Source: an uncultured Bacteroidota bacterium
Lineage (GTDB): Bacteria > Bacteroidota > Bacteroidia > Flavobacteriales > Flavobacteriaceae
DNA length: 64,000 bases
Direction: 5' to 3'
NCBI GenBank assembly: GCA_902618245.1
Contig: CACMZR010000005.1
Coordinates: 1 to 64,000, forward strand
Of this stretch, positions 17,500 through 41,495 are shown in pieces. The translations under genes were made by a program, and so were the position numbers. The first letter of the stretch is position 1; each line of letters starts with the position of its first letter. Under the pieces are notes generated by a model, which was not told the DNA's origin, made no database searches, and saw nothing but the letters and a program-made list of their open reading frames with translations.

Positions 17500-18111
17500 C
17501 TATCCAAATTTTTCCAAATACATATTATAAAGATTTGAATCATTTTTGAGATCGATAAAATCATCAATGTCATTTTCTATTCCTAGAAAGTAGACAGAAT
17601 CATTTTTAATTTTTTTTAATGTTTCCTCTAAAACGCGGTCTGTACTCCAAGGAATATTTTGAAAAATTTTCTTTTTCATTTTTTTCATACCAATCAAATA
17701 ATATCCACCATCATAAGTAGGGCCAATCACAAAATCTTTATTCTCTAATACATTTCTAGCTCGAATTACCATACTCTCACTAATATTCCATAGATCGGTT
17801 CCAATTAGTATAACATTTTTATATTTTTCATTGAAGGCCCACTGAAAAGCTGATAGCATTTTATCTCCTAGATCAGATCCATTTTGAACTAAAAATTTTT
17901 TTGCGTTAACAAAAATTGATTTGATTTTTTTATTTGGTTTACTCTGAAATACAATAATATCTTGATTGTTATTTGATATATTTTCAGCTGTTTTTTTAAT
18001 TAGTTGTAAATAAATCCAATGAGATTTTTCGGATCCTATATTGTGACCAAGTCTGGTTTTAACTTCACCTTTTATAGGTGACTTTGCAAAAACCATCAAT
18101 AAGTTTTTCAT
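17500..18111 (-). CDS. TIGR04282/DUF2064-type glycosyltransferase
   Basis: The 203-residue protein begins NLLMVFAKSPIKGEVKTRL, the nucleotide-binding signature of the DUF2064 family, and has IGTDLWNIS and GPTYDGGYYLIGM as the second conserved block. It is a GT-A fold nucleotidyl/glycosyl transferase annotated in some genomes as arsenosugar biosynthesis glycosyltransferase. Its start codon shares one base with the trpA stop, so it is translated from the trp operon message. Sixty-one bases separate it from the DUF547 gene downstream. The substrate is unknown. Confidence 0.82.
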   Translation of the reverse strand: MKNLLMVFAKSPIKGEVKTRLGHNIGSEKSHWIYLQLIKKTAENISNNNQDIIVFQSKPNKKIKSIFVNAKKFLVQNGSDLGDKMLSAFQWAFNEKYKNVILIGTDLWNISESMVIRARNVLENKDFVIGPTYDGGYYLIGMKKMKKKIFQNIPWSTDRVLEETLKKIKNDSVYFLGIENDIDDFIDLKNDSNLYNMYLEKFG

Positions 18112-18872
18112 TAACGTATAGAAGAAATAAATGAACCTATATTTTCCACACCTTCTTCTTCAAGAAATTTAATAAATGCTGATCCAATTATTGCTCCACT
18201 TGAGTGTTTAATGGCTGTCAAATAGGTTTCTGAATTACTTATCCCAAAACCTACAACCGTTGGTGTGGATAGTTTCATTTTAGCTATGCGATTAAAATAG
18301 TCTGTTTGTGTGCTCCCGAATTTATCCTTAGCTCCAGTGACACTTGCACTACTAACCATATAAATAAATCCATTTGATACTTTATCAATATATTTAATTC
18401 TTGTCTCAGGAGTTTGTGGAGTTATCAAAAACATATTGTATAAACCATATTTTTTAAATAGGCTTTTATAATTTTCATGATAAACATCAACAGGTAGATC
18501 AGGAATAATTAATCCGTCAATACCTATTTTTTGACAATTTTGACAAAATTTTTCAATTCCGTATTGCATCATTGGATTTAAGTAACCCATTATTACCAAG
18601 GGAATTTTAATTTTTTTACGAACATTTTCAAGTTGTGAAAAAAGTTTTTGTGTCGTCATCCCGTTTTGCAGTGCTTGAGTAGAACTTTTTTGGATAGTTG
18701 GCCCATCTGCTAATGGATCGGAAAACGGAAGTCCAATTTCGACCATATCAACCCCAGAGGACTCAAGTTTTTCCAAGATAGTTAATGTATCCTCAAGCTT
18801 TGGATGGCCAGCTGAAAAATAGATAGACAAGAGTTTCTTGTCTTCTTTAAACTTTTTATCAATTCTATTCAT
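18111..18872 (-). CDS. trpA: tryptophan synthase alpha subunit
   Basis: The 253-residue TIM-barrel protein has VEIGLPFSDPLADGPTIQ (active-site Glu and Asp region), YLNPMMQYG and GFGISNSE. It cleaves indole-3-glycerol phosphate to indole, which is channelled to TrpB. It is the last biosynthetic gene of trpEGDCFBA and shares one base with both trpB upstream and the DUF2064 gene downstream, so the operon continues past trpA. Confidence 0.97.
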   Translation of the reverse strand: MNRIDKKFKEDKKLLSIYFSAGHPKLEDTLTILEKLESSGVDMVEIGLPFSDPLADGPTIQKSSTQALQNGMTTQKLFSQLENVRKKIKIPLVIMGYLNPMMQYGIEKFCQNCQKIGIDGLIIPDLPVDVYHENYKSLFKKYGLYNMFLITPQTPETRIKYIDKVSNGFIYMVSSASVTGAKDKFGSTQTDYFNRIAKMKLSTPTVVGFGISNSETYLTAIKHSSGAIIGSAFIKFLEEEGVENIGSFISSIR

Positions 18873-20053
18873 TAAAGTTTGAAATAGTCTATATAAGTTG
18901 ATAAATCCTTATCACCTCTACCAGAACAATTAAAAACAATTATTTCCTCAGGACCAAACTTACGGACATCAAGAACCGCAAATGCGTGAGCTGTTTCAAT
19001 CGCTGGGATAATGCCTTCGGTTTGAGATAAAGTTAGCCCCCAATCCATTGCCTCTTGATCAGGTATAGAGACAAATTCAGCCCTCTTAGATCTGAACAGA
19101 TGCGCGTGCATTGGCCCTACACCGGGATAATCTAAACCCGCTGAAATGGAGTAGGGTTCTGTAATTTGTCCATCACTGGATTGCATCAAAAGAGTTTTGC
19201 TACCGTGTATTATTCCCTCTTTACCTAGCGCAGATGTAGCAGCACTTTGACCTGAATCAATACCCTTACCTGCAGCTTCTATTGCAATTATATTAACCCG
19301 TTCATCGTTTAGATAATGATAATATAGACCTGCAGCGTTACTACCCCCACCAACACAAGCAATGACATGGTTGGGATAGTCTCTTCCCTCTTGTTCTTCA
19401 AGTTGCCATTTTGTTTCTTCACTAATAACAGATTGAAAACGTGCAACCATATCTGGATAAGGATGAGGTCCAACTACTGAACCAATTATATAATGAGTAT
19501 CTATTGGATTGTTTATCCAGTCCCGAATTGCTTCGTTCGTTGCGTCTTTGAGGGTTTTACTACCAGACTTTGCTGAACGTACCTCAGCTCCCAACATTTT
19601 CATTCGAGCTACATTAGGGGCTTGCCGGTGAATATCTAATTCGCCCATATACACAATACACTCGATGCCCATTAAAGCACAAACAGTAGCTGTAGCAACA
19701 CCATGTTGTCCAGCTCCAGTTTCGGCAATAATTCTATTTTTTCCAAGACGTTTTGCTAAAAGTATTTGTCCTATGGTATTGTTTACTTTATGTGCCCCAG
19801 TATGGCATAAGTCCTCTCTTTTTAAATAAATTTTTGTTTTGTATTTTTCTGATAAGCGACTTGCAAAATATAGTGGTGTTGGACGTCCAACATAAACTTT
19901 TAAAAGATTTTCAAACTCTTTTTTAAAATCAGCTCGCCCAGTTATTTCTAAATAATTATCACGCAATTCAGCCACATTTGGATATAACATTTCTGGAATA
20001 AAAGCCCCTCCAAAATCACCATAATATCCTTTTTCATTTACATTATAATTCAT
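18872..20053 (-). CDS. trpB: tryptophan synthase beta subunit
   Basis: The 393-residue protein shows LKREDLCHTGAHKVNN, in which the Lys forms the Schiff base with pyridoxal phosphate, and CVGGGSNAAG, the phosphate-binding loop. It condenses indole with serine to make tryptophan. The length and the GDFGGAFIPEML N-terminus match the TrpB1 family. It overlaps trpF by 11 bases and trpA by one base, consistent with strict co-expression. Confidence 0.98.
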   Translation of the reverse strand: MNYNVNEKGYYGDFGGAFIPEMLYPNVAELRDNYLEITGRADFKKEFENLLKVYVGRPTPLYFASRLSEKYKTKIYLKREDLCHTGAHKVNNTIGQILLAKRLGKNRIIAETGAGQHGVATATVCALMGIECIVYMGELDIHRQAPNVARMKMLGAEVRSAKSGSKTLKDATNEAIRDWINNPIDTHYIIGSVVGPHPYPDMVARFQSVISEETKWQLEEQEGRDYPNHVIACVGGGSNAAGLYYHYLNDERVNIIAIEAAGKGIDSGQSAATSALGKEGIIHGSKTLLMQSSDGQITEPYSISAGLDYPGVGPMHAHLFRSKRAEFVSIPDQEAMDWGLTLSQTEGIIPAIETAHAFAVLDVRKFGPEEIIVFNCSGRGDKDLSTYIDYFKL

Positions 20054-20660
20054 ACAATTCCTTTTTAAAAAATTTTAATTTATCAATATTTTTTTTTGCA
20101 GGTGAAATTTCAAATTTACTATTTACATCAATAGCATATAATGGTAATTGAGAATTTAATAATTTTTTGATTTGATCTATGTTATCTATCCCAATTCCAC
20201 CACTTAGAAAAAAGGGTTTTTGAAGCGAATAATTTTTAAGAATACCCCAATCAAAATTTATACCGTTTCCACCTGGCAGATCTCCTTTTGTGTCAAATAA
20301 AAAAAAGTCGCAATTTTTTTCATAGCTTTTCAAAATTGAAAAGTTATAACTATTACTTATCGAAAATGTTTTAATTACCTCAACATTTAAGTTTTTTATC
20401 ACCTTGCAATAATCAGGTGTTTCATCACCGTGTAATTGTACTGCACTCAATTGATGTTTTACTATCATGGTTTCGATATAATCAATTGAAGCATTAACAA
20501 AGACTCCCGTTTTTTTAATACTATCGTCTATTTTTGGAGTTTTATCAGTAACGTGTCTTTTCGAAGGAGCCCAAAAAATAAAGCCAATATAGTTTGGTTT
20601 CAGCTTACAAAGTGAATTTATGTTTTCAAACTCTCGCATGCCACAAACCTTTAATTTCAT
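20043..20660 (-). CDS. trpF: phosphoribosylanthranilate isomerase
   Basis: The 205-residue TIM-barrel protein starts MKLKVCGMRE, whose Cys is the catalytic base of the family, and carries VQLHGDE and LPGGNGINFDW with the substrate-phosphate region near FLSGGI. It isomerises N-(5-phosphoribosyl)anthranilate in the third committed step of Trp synthesis. TrpF is a separate protein here, not fused to TrpC as in enterobacteria. It overlaps trpC by 4 bases and trpB by 11. Confidence 0.95.
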   Translation of the reverse strand: MKLKVCGMREFENINSLCKLKPNYIGFIFWAPSKRHVTDKTPKIDDSIKKTGVFVNASIDYIETMIVKHQLSAVQLHGDETPDYCKVIKNLNVEVIKTFSISNSYNFSILKSYEKNCDFFLFDTKGDLPGGNGINFDWGILKNYSLQKPFFLSGGIGIDNIDQIKKLLNSQLPLYAIDVNSKFEISPAKKNIDKLKFFKKELYEL

Positions 20661-21442
20661 TGTGTAATTCTTCTGATAAAATCTTTAGCTGTATCCCCAG
20701 GGTGATCTGATTTCATGAAGTTTTCACCAATTAAAAAACCTTTGTAGCCAAATTCTATTAATTCTTTTATACTATTAGTATCGCTTATTCCGCTCTCTGA
20801 TACTTTTAAAAACTGGTCAGGTATTTTTTCTGCTAAACTTCTGCTTGTTTCTAATGAAACTTCAAAGGTTTTTAGGTTCCTATTGTTAACTCCAAATAAA
20901 TCAATTGTTGGCATAATTGACTTTTCAATTTCTTCAAGGTTATGAACCTCTAATAATACTTCTAGGCCTAAGTTATTTGCTAGAGACGAAAAATTCTTAA
21001 TTTCTTTTCTAGATAATACTGCTGCAATAAGAAGAATAACGTCAGCCCCATTAGCTTTAGCTTCAATTATTTGATATTCATCAATAACAAAATCTTTTCT
21101 AAGAAGAGGTAAGCTAATAATTGATCTTGAAAGAATTAAATCTTCGAGAGACCCACTAAAATATTTTCCATCAGTTAAAACAGACATTCCACTCACACCA
21201 GCTTCCTCATACTCTTTAGCAACTTTAGTTACAGAAAGTGAACTATTAATATTTTTTTTTGAAGGGGAACGACGTTTGAATTCTGCGATAATACCAAAAT
21301 CATTAATCTTAATTTTCTTTACAAGCGAGTTACAATGCCTTTCAAAAAGAGGAGATGTTTCTAAATAAGAGATTGGAAGTAATTTTTTTTTCTGAATCAC
21401 TTCAGCTTTTTTATCAGCTACTATTTTATTGAGAATATTCAT
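20657..21442 (-). CDS. trpC: indole-3-glycerol-phosphate synthase
   Basis: The 261-residue protein has the IGPS signature IIAEFKRRSPSKKNIN, then VLTDGKYFSGS, LRKDFVIDEYQI and VSESGISD. The Lys in FKRRSPS is the conserved catalytic-region residue. It converts CdRP to indole-3-glycerol phosphate. It overlaps trpD by 4 bases at its start and trpF by 4 at its end, the ATGA-type coupling repeated through the operon. Confidence 0.96.
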   Translation of the reverse strand: MNILNKIVADKKAEVIQKKKLLPISYLETSPLFERHCNSLVKKIKINDFGIIAEFKRRSPSKKNINSSLSVTKVAKEYEEAGVSGMSVLTDGKYFSGSLEDLILSRSIISLPLLRKDFVIDEYQIIEAKANGADVILLIAAVLSRKEIKNFSSLANNLGLEVLLEVHNLEEIEKSIMPTIDLFGVNNRNLKTFEVSLETSRSLAEKIPDQFLKVSESGISDTNSIKELIEFGYKGFLIGENFMKSDHPGDTAKDFIRRITQ

Positions 21443-22452
21443 TCTTTACTAATATTTTGAAGTTTATTAAATGCTTCAAATGCTTTTCCTGATACCAAAG
21501 ATTCTTTTGCCAACTTAAAACCCTCAATTGGAGAAAGATCTAAGGCAGTGGCAATAGCCATACCAGCATTTGCACATACTACGTCTTCTTGTGATTTAGT
21601 ACCCTTGTTTTGTAGTACATCTATAAAAATTTTAGCTGATGATTTAACATTATTTCCACCTTGAATAGATTTTGCTTTTATTTGTTCTGTACCAAAATCT
21701 TTGGCTGTAATTAATTTTTCAAAATCATTTCCAATTGCTTTTGCAGGACTAGTTAAAGAAATTTCATCATATCCATCTAGGGAGTAAAGAATGGTAAAAT
21801 TTATATTGGTTTTTTGTAATAGGTAATTATAAAGACGGGCTAGTTCAAGATTAAAAACTCCGGTTAGTTGATTTTTAGGAGAACATGGATTGACTAGTGG
21901 TCCAAGCATATTAAAAAATGTTTTCAAACCTAGCTCCTTGCGAACGGGTCCAACATTTTTCATAGCAGGATGAAATAAAGGGGCATGAAGAATACATATT
22001 CCAGCCTTCTCTAAACAACGTTTTAAAAAGTCTTTATTATTGGAAAATTTAATTTCTAAAGCTTCGAGTACATTACTAGAACCGCATCCTGAGGAAACCC
22101 CGTAATTTCCATGTTTTGTAACCTTTATACCAGCTCCTGCAGTTACAAATGAGGATAATGTTGAAATATTAAAAGTGTCCTTGCCATCACCACCTGTACC
22201 ACACAAATCTATTGTGTTAAATTCACTTAAGTCTACTGAAATACATAATTCGAGTAGTGCCTCTCGAAAACCTTCAAGCTCTTCAAGGCTAATATTTCGC
22301 ATCATAAACACAGTTAGAAAAGAAGCAATTTGTGAGTTATTATATTTGCCTTCAGCAATATTAGTGATTATCTCTTTAGCCTCATCTTTACTAAGGGATT
22401 CATAGTTCGTAAGTCTTTTAAGAGTAGCTTTCATGCCTAACTTTTTATCCAA
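21439..22452 (-). CDS. trpD: anthranilate phosphoribosyltransferase
   Basis: The 337-residue protein carries the PRPP-binding GTGGDGKDTFNIST motif, KHGNYGVSSGCGSSNVLEAL and the C-terminal NAGMAIA segment of the nucleoside phosphorylase-like fold. It transfers phosphoribose to anthranilate. It is independent of trpG here, though the two genes overlap by 16 bases. The length is normal for the family. Confidence 0.96.
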   Translation of the reverse strand: MDKKLGMKATLKRLTNYESLSKDEAKEIITNIAEGKYNNSQIASFLTVFMMRNISLEELEGFREALLELCISVDLSEFNTIDLCGTGGDGKDTFNISTLSSFVTAGAGIKVTKHGNYGVSSGCGSSNVLEALEIKFSNNKDFLKRCLEKAGICILHAPLFHPAMKNVGPVRKELGLKTFFNMLGPLVNPCSPKNQLTGVFNLELARLYNYLLQKTNINFTILYSLDGYDEISLTSPAKAIGNDFEKLITAKDFGTEQIKAKSIQGGNNVKSSAKIFIDVLQNKGTKSQEDVVCANAGMAIATALDLSPIEGFKLAKESLVSGKAFEAFNKLQNISKE

Positions 22453-23000
22453 TTCTCTAATATTTTTTTTCCATTGGGAGTTAATACGGATTCGGGATGG
22501 TATTGAACAGATCTAACATCATAAGTTTTGTGTCTTAATGACATAAGATGCCCCTCATCATCAAAAGATGTAGCTATTAATTCGTTTGGTAATGGAGTAG
22601 CGACTACCCATGAATGGTATCGACCTATTTCAAACTTTTTTGGTAAGTCTTTAAAAAGTATGTCACTTTCCGATATAGTTACAGACGTTGAAATGCCGTG
22701 GTAAACTTTTTCCATATTTACCAGGGTTGCACCAAAAACCTCCCCAATTGCCTGCTGTCCTAAGCATACCCCTAGTATTTTTTTTGTTGGAGCATAATGT
22801 TGAATAGCTTCTTTTAATAAGCCAGATTCATCTGGTATTCCAGGACCGGGTGATAAAAGAATTAATGGATATTCTTTAATTTCATCAAGTTTGAATTCAT
22901 CATTACGTTTGACAGTAACATTACAATCAAGCTCCTCTAGATAATGAACAAGATTATATGTGAAGGAGTCATAATTATCTATAACAAAAACTTTTTTCAT
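22437..23000 (-). CDS. trpG: anthranilate synthase component II (glutamine amidotransferase)
   Basis: The 187-residue class I amidotransferase has the oxyanion/nucleophile motif GVCLGQQAIGE (catalytic Cys near residue 79) and the C-terminal catalytic His-Glu in VQYHPESVLT. It supplies ammonia from glutamine to TrpE. It could also serve p-aminobenzoate synthesis, as trpG does in several bacteria. No pabB is visible nearby. It lies 3 bases after trpE. Confidence 0.95.
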   Translation of the reverse strand: MKKVFVIDNYDSFTYNLVHYLEELDCNVTVKRNDEFKLDEIKEYPLILLSPGPGIPDESGLLKEAIQHYAPTKKILGVCLGQQAIGEVFGATLVNMEKVYHGISTSVTISESDILFKDLPKKFEIGRYHSWVVATPLPNELIATSFDDEGHLMSLRHKTYDVRSVQYHPESVLTPNGKKILENWIKS

Positions 23001-23003
23001 TAA

Positions 23004-24404
23004 TCAAATTTTTTCTGCTTGTAACAAAGCTTTGTCTAAAGCACCTAACTTATTATATACTTCTTGTAATTCATTTTCTGGTACAGAAGCTGCTACAATA
23101 CCAGCTCCAGCTTGATAATGCAATCTATTGTTCATACTCAAAAATGATCGTATTATTATTGCATGGTTAAAATTTCCATAGAAGTCCATATATCCAATAG
23201 CCCCACCATAAAAATTTCGTTGTGTTTTTTCATACTTATCTATAAGTTGAAGCGCTTTATGTTTTGGCGCTCCGCTTAAAGTTCCTGCAGGAAATGTGTC
23301 TGCCACTACTCTAAATGTCTTGGCTGAATCTTTCATATTGCAAGTAACTTTAGAAACTAGATGTATTACATGCGAAAAAAATTGAATCTCACGATTTTTT
23401 TCAACCAAAACACTTGAACCGTTTCTACTCAAGTCGTTTCTGGCTAAATCGACTAACATTACATGCTCACTATTTTCTTTTGGATCTTTGGCTAATTCTT
23501 TAGCTGCTTGAGTATCTTTTAGGTCATTACCTGTTCTTCGGAAAGTACCAGCTATAGGATGAATTTCAGCTTTTCCATTATCAACAATTAATTGTGCTTC
23601 TGGTGAACTTCCAAATATCTTGAAATATCCATAGTCGAAAAAAAATAGATAAGGTGACGGATTTATGGAACGAAGAGTTCTATATACATTAAACTCATCA
23701 CCTTTAAATTGTTGTGAAAATTGACGAGATAATACTAGTTGAAATACATCTCCTCTGTAGCAATGTTCTTTTCCTTTTTTTACAAAATCAATAAATTCTG
23801 AATCAGTTAGATTAGAAGACTTTTCTCCAACTTTTTCAAATTTGAAAGGAGTACTAATTTGAGAATTTAATAAGTTTTCTATCACATCTAAATTATGATC
23901 ACTATCATAAGTATTAGAAAATAAATAGGCTTCATGATTAAACAAACTTATAGCAATAATATTTTCATAGACAGCATAATACATATCAGGCATCTCTATT
24001 CCGGTTTTATTTCTGTCTAGTTTGATTTTATCAAAACGCTCAACAGCTTCATGAGCGATAAATCCAAAAATACCATTACTAATAAATTCAAAGGGTAGTT
24101 TTTCACTTTTAAATTGAGTTGAGAATTCATGTACTCGTTCGGGAATATCAATTGATTCATCTACTTTCTCAACTATTGAACTTTTATCAGGAAAATGAGT
24201 TGTTAATTTTTTATTTTTTAATTCAATTGAGGCAATAGGATTACAGCATATGTATGAAAAGTTTTTGTTATTTGAAGAATAATCACTACTCTCAAGAAGT
24301 AGGGAATGTGGAAATACATCTCTTACTTTCAGATAGACATTTACTGGTGTAATTGTGTCTGCTAGTATTTTTTTAAATACTGTTTTTAAAGAATAAATTT
24401 TCAT
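23004..24404 (-). CDS. trpE: anthranilate synthase component I
   Basis: The 466-residue chorismate-utilising enzyme has IFGSSPEAQLIV, IAGTFRRTGND, EHVMLVDLARNDLSR and GTLSGAPKHKALQLID. The N-terminal LLLESSDYSSNNKNFSYI contains the LLES motif of the tryptophan feedback site, so allosteric inhibition by Trp is likely. It is the first structural gene of the operon. Its ATG lies 16 bases after the attenuator terminator stem, placing it under transcription attenuation as well. Confidence 0.97.
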   Translation of the reverse strand: MKIYSLKTVFKKILADTITPVNVYLKVRDVFPHSLLLESSDYSSNNKNFSYICCNPIASIELKNKKLTTHFPDKSSIVEKVDESIDIPERVHEFSTQFKSEKLPFEFISNGIFGFIAHEAVERFDKIKLDRNKTGIEMPDMYYAVYENIIAISLFNHEAYLFSNTYDSDHNLDVIENLLNSQISTPFKFEKVGEKSSNLTDSEFIDFVKKGKEHCYRGDVFQLVLSRQFSQQFKGDEFNVYRTLRSINPSPYLFFFDYGYFKIFGSSPEAQLIVDNGKAEIHPIAGTFRRTGNDLKDTQAAKELAKDPKENSEHVMLVDLARNDLSRNGSSVLVEKNREIQFFSHVIHLVSKVTCNMKDSAKTFRVVADTFPAGTLSGAPKHKALQLIDKYEKTQRNFYGGAIGYMDFYGNFNHAIIIRSFLSMNNRLHYQAGAGIVAASVPENELQEVYNKLGALDKALLQAEKI

Positions 24405-24420
24405 ACGTCTACAAAATTAA

Positions 24421-24449
24421 AAAAGGCTTGTCGTGATGACAAGCCTTTT
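24421..24449 (-). terminator. trp attenuator: intrinsic terminator hairpin
   Basis: On the minus strand a 12-bp perfect stem (left arm AAAAGGCTTGTC, loop ATCAC, right arm GACAAGCCTTTT) runs into further T residues, then TTAATTTT. It lies between the Trp-rich leader ORF and trpE, so it is positioned to stop trp operon transcription when tryptophan is plentiful. A competing pairing (24471-24479 with 24431-24440) would open the lower part of this stem. Confidence 0.88.
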
Positions 24450-24497
24450 AAAATAGTAATATCAGATTTAGTCACACGAGAATTTGTTGCATCGCGT
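24431..24497 (-). promoter_or_regulatory. trp attenuator: antiterminator and anti-antiterminator pairings
   Basis: TCGTGTGAC (24479 to 24471 on the minus strand, overlapping the leader stop codon) can pair with GTCATCACGA (24440 to 24431) over nine base pairs with one bulged T, which breaks the terminator. The same TCGTGT can instead pair with ACGCGA (24497 to 24492), just after the two Trp codons, in six pairs including one G-U. A ribosome stalled at the Trp codons would cover ACGCGA and so favour the antiterminator. Confidence 0.72.
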
Positions 24498-24531
24498 ACC
24501 ACCAGTTAATATTGCAAATAAAATTTTTCAT
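24472..24531 (-). CDS. trpL: trp operon leader peptide
   Basis: The 19-codon ORF MKNFICNINWWYAMQQILV ends in TGA and has two adjacent tryptophan codons at positions 10 and 11 (24504-24499). It sits 68 bases upstream of trpE and directly in front of an attenuator hairpin. The peptide itself is not expected to have a function; ribosome progress through the WW pair reads the level of charged tRNA-Trp. The ATG lies only 4 bases from a TATATTTG -7 box, so the leader mRNA may have almost no 5' untranslated region. Confidence 0.87.
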   Translation of the reverse strand: MKNFICNINWWYAMQQILV

Positions 24532-24535
24532 TGTT

Positions 24536-24543
24536 CAAATATA
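24536..24543 (-). promoter_or_regulatory. candidate -7 box of the trp operon
   Basis: On the minus strand TATATTTG is a full match to TAnnTTTG, and it ends 4 bases before the trpL ATG. No TTG -33 element is evident 17-23 bases upstream. The YceI gene upstream could also contribute readthrough, since no terminator is seen between it and trpL. Confidence 0.5.
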
Positions 24544-24610
24544 ACATAAATTTTAGAAACCTTTAACCTTAATGATTATTCAAACGAATCAAAAAACTTT
24601 AATATCGTAT

Positions 24611-25171
24611 TTAAAAATAAAGGTTGACTTCTAATTCGATATCGTCGTAAATAAGTTTATCACCTAAATTAGAAAAAAAGCTTGATGATCTATGCTTAAC
24701 ATCAAATTTAGATCTATCAAAAACCATTTCTACTGTTGCACCGTCATCGTTTAGTAATAATATAAAATTAGTTGATTTAGTTATGCCTTTGATTGTTAAA
24801 TCCCCTGTAACTTCATATTTATCTATGTCAATTTTTTCTGCAGAGGTTATCTTTAATGAAGATCTAGGATATTGCTCCACTGAAAAAAAATCTTCAGAAC
24901 GCAAATGATTTTCTAGATAATCTTTGGACCTTCCAGTCAAATCCTCATTCAATAAGCTTAACATATCAACAGAAAATTCACCCCCAACTATTAGATTGTT
25001 ATCGAACAGTATATTCCCTGATATAAATCTTAGCGAGCCATAGTGTATTTTTGTTGTAATTTCCTTTCCAGTCCATTTAATCTTGCTTAATTGTAGGTTT
25101 ATATTTTTATTTTGCCCGGATAAATGGAGGTTTATAAAGCATATAAACGTTAATATAAATAACTTTTTCAT
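24611..25171 (-). CDS. YceI family periplasmic protein
   Basis: The 186-residue protein has a signal peptide (FILTFICFINLHLSGQ) and a YceI lipocalin-like beta-barrel, with SKIKWTGKEI, GEFSVDMLSL and VTGDLTIKGITKSTNFILLL. Members bind isoprenoid quinones or other lipophilic molecules in the periplasm; the ligand here is unknown. It is encoded upstream of the trp operon on the same strand, 79 bases before the trp leader ORF, and it faces away from the rhodanese gene. Confidence 0.85.
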   Translation of the reverse strand: MKKLFILTFICFINLHLSGQNKNINLQLSKIKWTGKEITTKIHYGSLRFISGNILFDNNLIVGGEFSVDMLSLLNEDLTGRSKDYLENHLRSEDFFSVEQYPRSSLKITSAEKIDIDKYEVTGDLTIKGITKSTNFILLLNDDGATVEMVFDRSKFDVKHRSSSFFSNLGDKLIYDDIELEVNLYF

Positions 25172-30524: not shown

Positions 30525-30598
30525 GCCGATGTAGCTCAGCTGGCTAGAGCAGCTGATTTGTAATCAGCAGGTCGTGGGTTCGAGTCCCTCCATCGGCT
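30525..30598 (+). tRNA. tRNA-Thr (anticodon TGT)
   Basis: The 74-base cloverleaf has acceptor GCCGATG pairing with CATCGGC. The anticodon stem-loop CTGATTTGTAATCAG has TGT at the centre, and the T-loop is GGTTCGAGTCC. No CCA is encoded. It is the first of four tRNAs in the order thrU-tyrU-glyT-thrT known from many bacteria. Confidence 0.96.
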
Positions 30599-30663
30599 CT
30601 AATTTTTAAAAAGAACAAGCAATATGTTTTTAAATTAATTTATGGTTCAAAATCATTAAAATA

Positions 30664-30746
30664 GGGGAGATACTCAAGCGGCCAACGAGGACAGACTGTA
30701 AATCTGTTGTTTTTTAACTTCGCAGGTTCGAATCCTGCTCTCCCCA
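30664..30746 (+). tRNA. tRNA-Tyr (anticodon GTA)
   Basis: The 83-base class II tRNA has acceptor GGGGAGA with TCTCCCC. The anticodon loop CAGACTGTAAATCTG reads GTA. A long variable arm (about TTGTTTTTTAACTTCGCA) precedes the T-arm GGTTCGAATCC. CCA is not encoded. Confidence 0.96.
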
Positions 30747-30822
30747 CAACCTTATTTTAATAGAATTAATTATATTCACAAGTAAAAACACTAAACTATA
30801 AAGTGAAACCTAAAAACAATAT

Positions 30823-30895
30823 GCGAGAGTAGCTCAGTTGGTAGAGCGTCAGCCTTCCAAGCTGAATGTCGCCGGTTCGAACCCGGTCTCTCGCT
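30823..30895 (+). tRNA. tRNA-Gly (anticodon TCC)
   Basis: The 73-base tRNA has acceptor GCGAGAG with CTCTCGC. The anticodon stem-loop CAGCCTTCCAAGCTG has TCC at the centre, and the T-loop is GGTTCGAACCC. It lies third in the cluster. Confidence 0.96.
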
Positions 30896-30905
30896 CTCTT
30901 TTTTT

Positions 30906-30977
30906 GCCGATGTAGCTCAGGGGTAGAGCGTTTCCTTGGTAAGGAAGAGGTCACGAGTTCAAATCTCGTCATTGGCT
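30906..30977 (+). tRNA. tRNA-Thr (anticodon GGT)
   Basis: The 72-base tRNA has acceptor GCCGATG with CATTGGC (one G-U pair) and a compact D-loop. The anticodon region TTCCTTGGTAAGGAA reads GGT. Only 10 bases separate it from tRNA-Gly. In the usual order tuf follows directly, but here 9.2 kb of other genes intervene. Confidence 0.95.
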
Positions 30978-41422: not shown

Positions 41423-41495
41423 ACGGGTTTAGCTCAGTTGGTAGAGCACTGGTCTCCAAAACCAGGTGTCGGGAGTTCGAGCCTCTCAACCCGTG
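41423..41495 (+). tRNA. tRNA-Trp (anticodon CCA)
   Basis: The 73-base tRNA has acceptor ACGGGTT with AACCCGT. The anticodon stem-loop CTGGTCTCCAAAACCAG reads CCA, and the T-loop is GAGTTCGAGCC. It lies between tuf and secE, as in other Bacteroidota. Its charging level is what the trp attenuator at 24421-24531 would sense. Confidence 0.97.

Follow-up and report, generated by a model that had tools for sequence, protein, structure and literature searches.

A tryptophan-codon leader with the features of a ribosome-mediated attenuator upstream of trpEGDCFBA in a flavobacterium

The trp operon and its leader region

The window, the whole stretch of 64,000 nucleotides that was analysed, carries a trp operon on its minus strand. 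The first structural gene is trpE for anthranilate synthase component I (23004-24404), and it is followed by trpG, trpD, trpC, trpF, trpB and trpA (18111-23000). The assignment of trpE comes from a profile match, its best NCBIfam match being TIGR00564 with an E value of 1.6e-119, yet under the equivalog cut-off of that family; the best NCBIfam match of trpF is likewise under its equivalog cut-off. The family identity of both proteins is clear, and the gene set represents a complete pathway from chorismate. A gene for a TIGR04282-family glycosyltransferase (arsenosugar biosynthesis type by its family name; 17500-18111, minus strand) begins at the final base of trpA and possibly shares the transcript of the operon. 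The upstream neighbour is a YceI-family gene (24611-25171) on the same strand. Elsewhere in the window, four tRNA genes form a cluster on the plus strand (30525-30977) and a fifth tRNA gene stands isolated at 41423. The host genome assembly is 1.83 Mb in length and 86% complete. Among the best 80 of 135 loci from named genomes, the nearest relatives by trpE are uncultured Bacteroidetes, then Flavobacteriaceae, Arcticimaribacter / MS024-2A, and the record titles of the relatives suggest that the host flavobacterium is marine.

Between the YceI-family gene and trpE, on the minus strand, lies a compact leader region. A -7 box of the Bacteroidota sigma-A type TAnnTTTG (TATATTTG, 24536-24543) is located 4 nt before the AUG of a trpL-like ORF, MKNFICNINWWYAMQQILV, which has 19 codons and a stop (24472-24531; ATG at 24531, TGA at 24472-24474). 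Codons 10 and 11 are tandem Trp codons (24499-24504), the stall site predicted from sequence and conservation, and ACGCGA stands directly after them. A spacer of 22 nt separates the ORF from an intrinsic terminator hairpin, AAAAGGCTTGTC ATCAC GACAAGCCTTTT and then a T tract (24421-24449), with a 12-bp stem (arms 24438-24449 and 24421-24432), a loop of ATCAC and a distance of 16 nt to the trpE ATG at 24404. An intrinsic terminator between the leader and the first gene, a part by which a trp attenuator is recognised, is thus present at the locus. Folded together with its spacer (24421-24465), the terminator has an energy of -16.7 kcal/mol and a z of -6.2, which none of 200 shuffles equalled, and the fold of the whole leader has a z of -3.8 against shuffles. 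Without the complete terminator the leader is no more stable than shuffled sequences (z 0.28 for 24436-24531, z -0.37 for 24469-24505), so that support for a hairpin upstream of the terminator comes entirely from comparison with other loci.

The putative switch is formed by three further segments. Segment 2, the left arm of the antiterminator (TCGTGTGAC, 24471-24479), begins 19 nt past the second Trp codon and overlaps the stop codon of the leader, the TGA at 24472-24474 lying within it. Segment 3, the right arm (GTCATCACGA, 24431-24440), consists of the inner stem and loop of the terminator, and the two arms can pair with nine pairs and one bulge as an alternative to the terminator. The minimum free energy fold predicts in addition a protecting 1:2 hairpin (24458-24513), in which the codons before, through and after the Trp codons face 24458-24479. 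The original prediction had described the promoter box upstream of the leader, the 19-codon ORF with WW at codons 10-11, the nine-pair antiterminator with its bulge, the stop codon inside the switch segment and the T-tailed 12-bp terminator 16 nt before trpE, and each of these can be read directly in the minus strand. It had also called the leader very short, which does not hold, as 19 codons exceed the 14 codons of E. coli trpL.

Conservation of the leader, its spacing and its helices

The upstream regions of 190 trpE loci were collected from close relatives, named genomes and a phylum-wide draw. Of 120 genomes in the draw of relatives, 86 gave a trpE, the own genome included, and 30 loci (29 relatives and the own) plus 40 more were used; the named genomes contributed the best 80 of 135 loci; the phylum-wide draw found trpE in 83 of 148 genomes, again including the own, and 40 loci were used. 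One locus without the N-terminus and 11 duplicates were dropped, leaving 178 distinct regions. A genus group was defined as the loci among L001-L110 whose trpE is at least 73% identical and which have a WW leader (n=34); 29 of them share the genus, and the assignment of the other five (L036, L037, L038, L042 and L092) relies only on identity. The group excludes L027 and three genomes with partial trpE, and L111, from the same genus, is counted among the others, only part of its trpE having been compared.

A short ORF with adjacent Trp codons (WW or WWW) precedes trpE in 165 of the 178 distinct regions sampled across Bacteroidota. The run is WW in the genus group and WWW in most other loci listed, and across families the listed leader peptides are little alike except for the Trp codons. 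As a control, 586 other ORFs of the window and the named loci gave 10 matches, or 6 in 335 when ORFs directly behind another ORF were set aside; the control loci are related to one another, and two of the ten matches (L081 and L095) look like alternative trpE starts. Judged by these counts, the WW leader before trpE appears far from chance. Thirteen regions have no adjacent Trp codons. Five of these (L027, L047, L151, L162 and L173) keep a terminator and a Trp-bearing leader whose Trp codons are separate or single, and in the other eight no convincing trp leader was found. The relatives L027 and L047 have a single Trp codon in the leader (CWY and YWL), with the arm word and the terminator intact. 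Gelidibacter pelagius (L070) and G. gilvus (L071) have neither trp leader nor terminator before trpE and their upstream DNA differs, unlike eight other named Gelidibacter loci, where both leader and terminator are present.

The distance between the Trp codons and segment 2 is nearly fixed. Fourteen of the 165 leader loci have no hairpin by the rule applied and were left out of the spacing counts, leaving 151 with a recognised hairpin, and 96 of these carry the arm word TCGT[GA]. In 95 of the 96 the word begins 17-21 nt past the Trp run, and in the remaining one at 33 nt; measured from the stop codon, its position spans -12 to +10, a range of 22 nt. In the 61 loci without TCGTGA or TCGTGT, 11 of which belong to the genus group, the best arm starts 15-21 nt past the Trp run in 41, compared with 13.8% of shuffled segments, and 31 of the 61 pair with their own terminator loop region better than 95% of shuffles.

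An identical or very similar terminator hairpin occurs in most of the Flavobacteriaceae loci listed. Because the terminator and TCGTGA vary so little there, conservation by itself cannot prove the pairing in this family, and RNAalifold, run on two alignments of leader plus terminator (34 and 44 sequences), returned the terminator only. In some loci with replaced arms the pairing is kept: TCGTAAG pairs with CTTACGA in Dokdonia, and TGTGAACAGC with GCTGTTCACA in the Cyclobacteriaceae loci L106 and L108. In swap tests the 2:3 helix gave z values of -17.0 for all loci, -13.1 for loci without the word and -5.3 for the other loci with the word, values from mixed sets that are partly confounded by base composition. 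The genus-group values are cleaner because the mixed sets differ in base composition; within the genus group, where the arms hardly vary, the 2:3 helix did not reach significance (p 0.087). In these tests 10 loci belong both to the genus group (34) and to the set without TCGT[GA] (56). The original prediction was to be given up if relatives showed no covariation or no pair of Trp codons; WW or WWW is found in the great majority of regions, as counted above, and the swap tests indicate that the alternative helices are co-adapted to their own partners.

Support for the 1:2 hairpin is weaker. The pair of ACGCGA with TCGTGT, named in the original prediction, is present in the window, and in the three closest relatives it is intact in one, weakened in one and lost in one. 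Tested locus by locus against shuffles, the pairing of the leader with segment 2 passes in 5 of 90 loci. A broader 1:2 helix, between the codons before and including Trp and the stretch past segment 2, lies roughly at the stem of the Rfam model discussed below and passes in 31 of 151 loci, with none of 35 at a trpE identity of at least 73%. The swap test favours the own partner in both cases, with z -3.0 (p 0.002) in the genus group and z -6.9 over all loci for the broader helix, and z -2.1 (p 0.02) and z -10.9, respectively, for the leader against segment 2. The absence of a protector hairpin, once read from the per-locus shuffles, was dropped since the swap test supports the 1:2 helix. That the 1:2 hairpin is real is moderately supported by these comparisons, with less certainty than the 2:3 helix. 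The earlier reading of the locus as a trp attenuator is thus sustained in the sequence half of its test, by the WW leaders and the co-adapted helices, while the particular 1:2 pair that it named is poorly kept.

Just past the terminator, and 7 nt before trpE, there is a second TAnnTTTG box (TAATTTTG, 24412-24419), which the original prediction had left unremarked. The T-rich tract may have produced it by chance, or it may act as a weak promoter from which transcripts could bypass the attenuator, a point against tight control. Such a box, 6-7 nt before trpE, occurs in 6 of the 34 genus-group loci, including the window and its three closest relatives; the 117 remaining loci with a hairpin have none. 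Together with the position of the YceI-family gene, whose end, on the same strand, is about 160 nt upstream of the hairpin, it lends something to the view that the hairpin is merely the terminator of that gene, trpE being constitutive or under a repressor and transcribed, for example, from the TAATTTTG box. This view is highly improbable, because a promoter box and a Trp leader ORF sit between the YceI-family gene and the hairpin, Trp leaders at a near-fixed distance from the arm accompany trpE throughout the sample, and the second box is confined to a few loci of the genus group among those with a hairpin.

Predicted switch and start of transcription

Ribosome-mediated transcription attenuation is, with high probability, what controls trpEGDCFBA. 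In the proposed order of events, RNA polymerase would initiate on the leader AUG or no more than about two bases away from it, and a ribosome would load immediately to translate the 19-codon leader. When charged tRNA-Trp is scarce, the ribosome would stall on the two Trp codons with its front edge short of the segment-2 word; since the front edge would stop there, the 1:2 hairpin would be broken and segment 2 left free to pair with the inner stem and loop of the terminator as these emerge. The antiterminator formed in this way would allow transcription to proceed into trpE. When Trp-tRNA is plentiful, the ribosome would reach the stop codon on segment 2 and cover this segment, and the terminator would form. 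With no ribosome on the leader, the 1:2 hairpin would form and the terminator would win too.

Folding of the RNA is consistent with the timing predicted by this scheme. The growing RNA was folded after masking leader nt 1-42 to imitate a ribosome on codon 10, the positions of the ribosome being assumptions of the model; its most stable structure was the antiterminator when the 3' end lay at nt 100-106, and the terminator from nt 108. Once complete, the RNA has the terminator as its equilibrium fold in each of the four states tested, so the switch has to operate kinetically, as attenuators usually do. As far as sequence and folding can tell, the antiterminator would compete with the terminator and would be within reach during a Trp stall.

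Initiation of translation in Bacteroidota does not rely on Shine-Dalgarno sequences, and if the 5' ends lie at the AUG, the leader would be a natural system for the study of how ribosomes start on Bacteroidota messages with neither a Shine-Dalgarno sequence nor a 5' UTR. In Flavobacterium psychrophilum the sigma-A box TAnnTTTG spans -12 to -5, according to the available text of PMC9723704; applied to the 4-nt gap at the window, this position would make the A of the leader AUG the +1 base. Box and ATG are 4-6 nt apart in all 34 loci of the genus group (5 nt in 26, 4 nt in six and 6 nt in two); in the 131 other loci the gap is 4-6 nt in 29 and longer in 74, and the search gave no box in 28. In contrast, 8 of 62 ORFs in the window have a box within 50 nt, with gaps from 2 to 33 nt and none of 4-6, and 17 of 112 ORFs from the genus-group loci and own-genome stretches have one, with gaps from 6 to 33 nt and a single one at 6. 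The leader probably sits on a leaderless or almost leaderless mRNA, whose 5' end is predicted at the AUG or about 1-2 bases from it. Leaderless mRNAs amount to 5.5% in F. psychrophilum (PMC9723704, available text).

A leaderless trp attenuator has been described in Sinorhizobium meliloti, where, as far as the accessible part of PMC7298713 states, the trpL RNA starts at the AUG of a Trp-codon ORF; the start at the window, which is a predicted one, would resemble it, and phylum and sequence are different. The S. meliloti RNA and peptide (rnTrpL and peTrpL) also have roles in trans according to the same part of PMC7298713, and with the RNA start predicted at or near the AUG here too, the terminated leader RNA or the peptide might likewise act in trans, as an addition to attenuation and not as an alternative to it. 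Such an additional role is unlikely at this locus, as it is supported by no test in this analysis and the listed peptides have little in common beyond the Trp codons.

Relation to known attenuators and to the his leader

The attenuator favoured here is of a kind already known. Bacteroid-trp (Rfam RF01692), which has the title 'Bacteroidete tryptophan peptide leader RNA' in Rfam, originates from Weinberg et al. 2010 (PMC2864571) and, in the part of PMC6414381 available, is likened to the E. coli trp leader and located before the trp operon of F. psychrophilum. The window matches RF01692 with 38.2 bits and an E value of 0.0052 in a 401-nt search, and misses the gathering cut-off of 49 bits. The model, from position 1 to 131 of 131, aligns to 24438-24550 (minus strand) in register and upstream of the trp operon, and the opposite strand has a weaker match (29.2 bits). 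The AUG, the UGGUGG and the GGCUUGUC terminator arm of the model are all found in register in the window, which has two Trp codons where three are common elsewhere. Because the Rfam model stops within the 5' arm of the terminator, it does not contain the 2:3 and 3:4 helices. As the in-register match stays below the curated cut-off, the window leader is very probably a divergent member of Bacteroid-trp, working like the E. coli trp attenuator. The cut-off was reached by none of the 24 genus-group leaders tested, the window's own included, and was passed by three (L080, L053 and L084) of the 15 loci in a mixed test, which held four of the 24, suggesting that the Bacteroid-trp type extends well past the Rfam cut-off and includes the genus group of the window.

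Riboswitches, T-boxes and TRAP-like systems control trp genes in other bacteria, and a ligand-binding or protein-binding RNA could be imagined to act on the same terminator in place of a stalled ribosome. For this locus the idea is barely tenable, since no such Rfam family matches, the coding strand matches a single trp element, the peptide leader Bacteroid-trp, and conservation is centred on the Trp codons and on the distance from them. Ribosome stalling is what operates in the E. coli trp attenuator (trpL, Rfam RF00513), and the tandem Trp codons, the stop codon in the switch segment, the T-tailed terminator before trpE and the alternative 1:2, 2:3 and 3:4 helices of that system have counterparts in the window, the 1:2 helix being a predicted one there. 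The window differs from E. coli in that its sequence is unrelated, its antiterminator uses the loop and inner stem of the terminator, its promoter has a Bacteroidota -7 box and almost no 5' UTR is predicted. The original comparison with the E. coli design in unrelated sequence agrees with these points and concerns a kind of leader that Bacteroid-trp already represents.

Leader-peptide attenuation has been noted in this group of bacteria. For F. psychrophilum, also a flavobacterium, 'strong clues' for attenuation by leader peptides before amino-acid biosynthesis operons have been reported in PMC9723704, the available text of which gives no switch geometry or operon names. In 2010, the authors of PMC2965389 stated, in the part accessible, that no leader-peptide system was known outside Proteobacteria and Actinobacteria before their own Firmicutes case, an antibiotic-sensing leader aside. 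In the literature searched, as far as its text was available, neither the Trp-to-arm spacing nor leaderless attenuators are mentioned for Bacteroidota; the Bacteroidota-wide pattern may have been described earlier by Lopatovskaya 2010 (cited in PMC4833913), Merino 2008 or Xie 2003. While the kind of attenuator is known, what is newer is the prediction of a leaderless start, together with the spacing rule and the extension past the Rfam cut-off. Across families the terminator sequences differ and the pairing and the distance from the Trp codons are kept, and the Trp-to-arm spacing provides a testable rule for finding such leaders.

Other biosynthetic operons of the own genome were inspected for the same design. 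No leader with a terminator was seen by eye before ilvD (about 320 nt) or thrA (about 160 nt), and the gene for prephenate dehydratase was not found in the incomplete assembly. A His-codon leader before hisG does share the design, and it is judged slightly on the probable side that the trp and his attenuators of the genus both lie on leaderless or near-leaderless mRNAs (start 0-4 nt from the leader AUG), that ribosome loading there depends on the very first bases of the transcript, and that the antiterminator arm keeps a nearly constant distance from the regulatory codons and not from the stop codon. If true, this would be a second occurrence, now in Bacteroidota, of the leaderless attenuator known from S. 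meliloti. The his leader, MKILLHHAHQFKNYSNEM and a stop codon, is located on contig C8 (L191:1234-1345), where no Rfam family reaches its cut-off; its promoter box is 6 nt before the AUG, and it is accompanied by the arm CTCAAACG and by a terminator containing CGTTTGAG. The gene hisG was found in 45 of 60 genomes, and the set covers 29 distinct loci of 30. All 29 distinct loci, the own included, combine adjacent His codons with both the arm word and the terminator word, the two words having been sought anywhere past the leader start, and the gaps between box and AUG in these loci are 5-8 nt.
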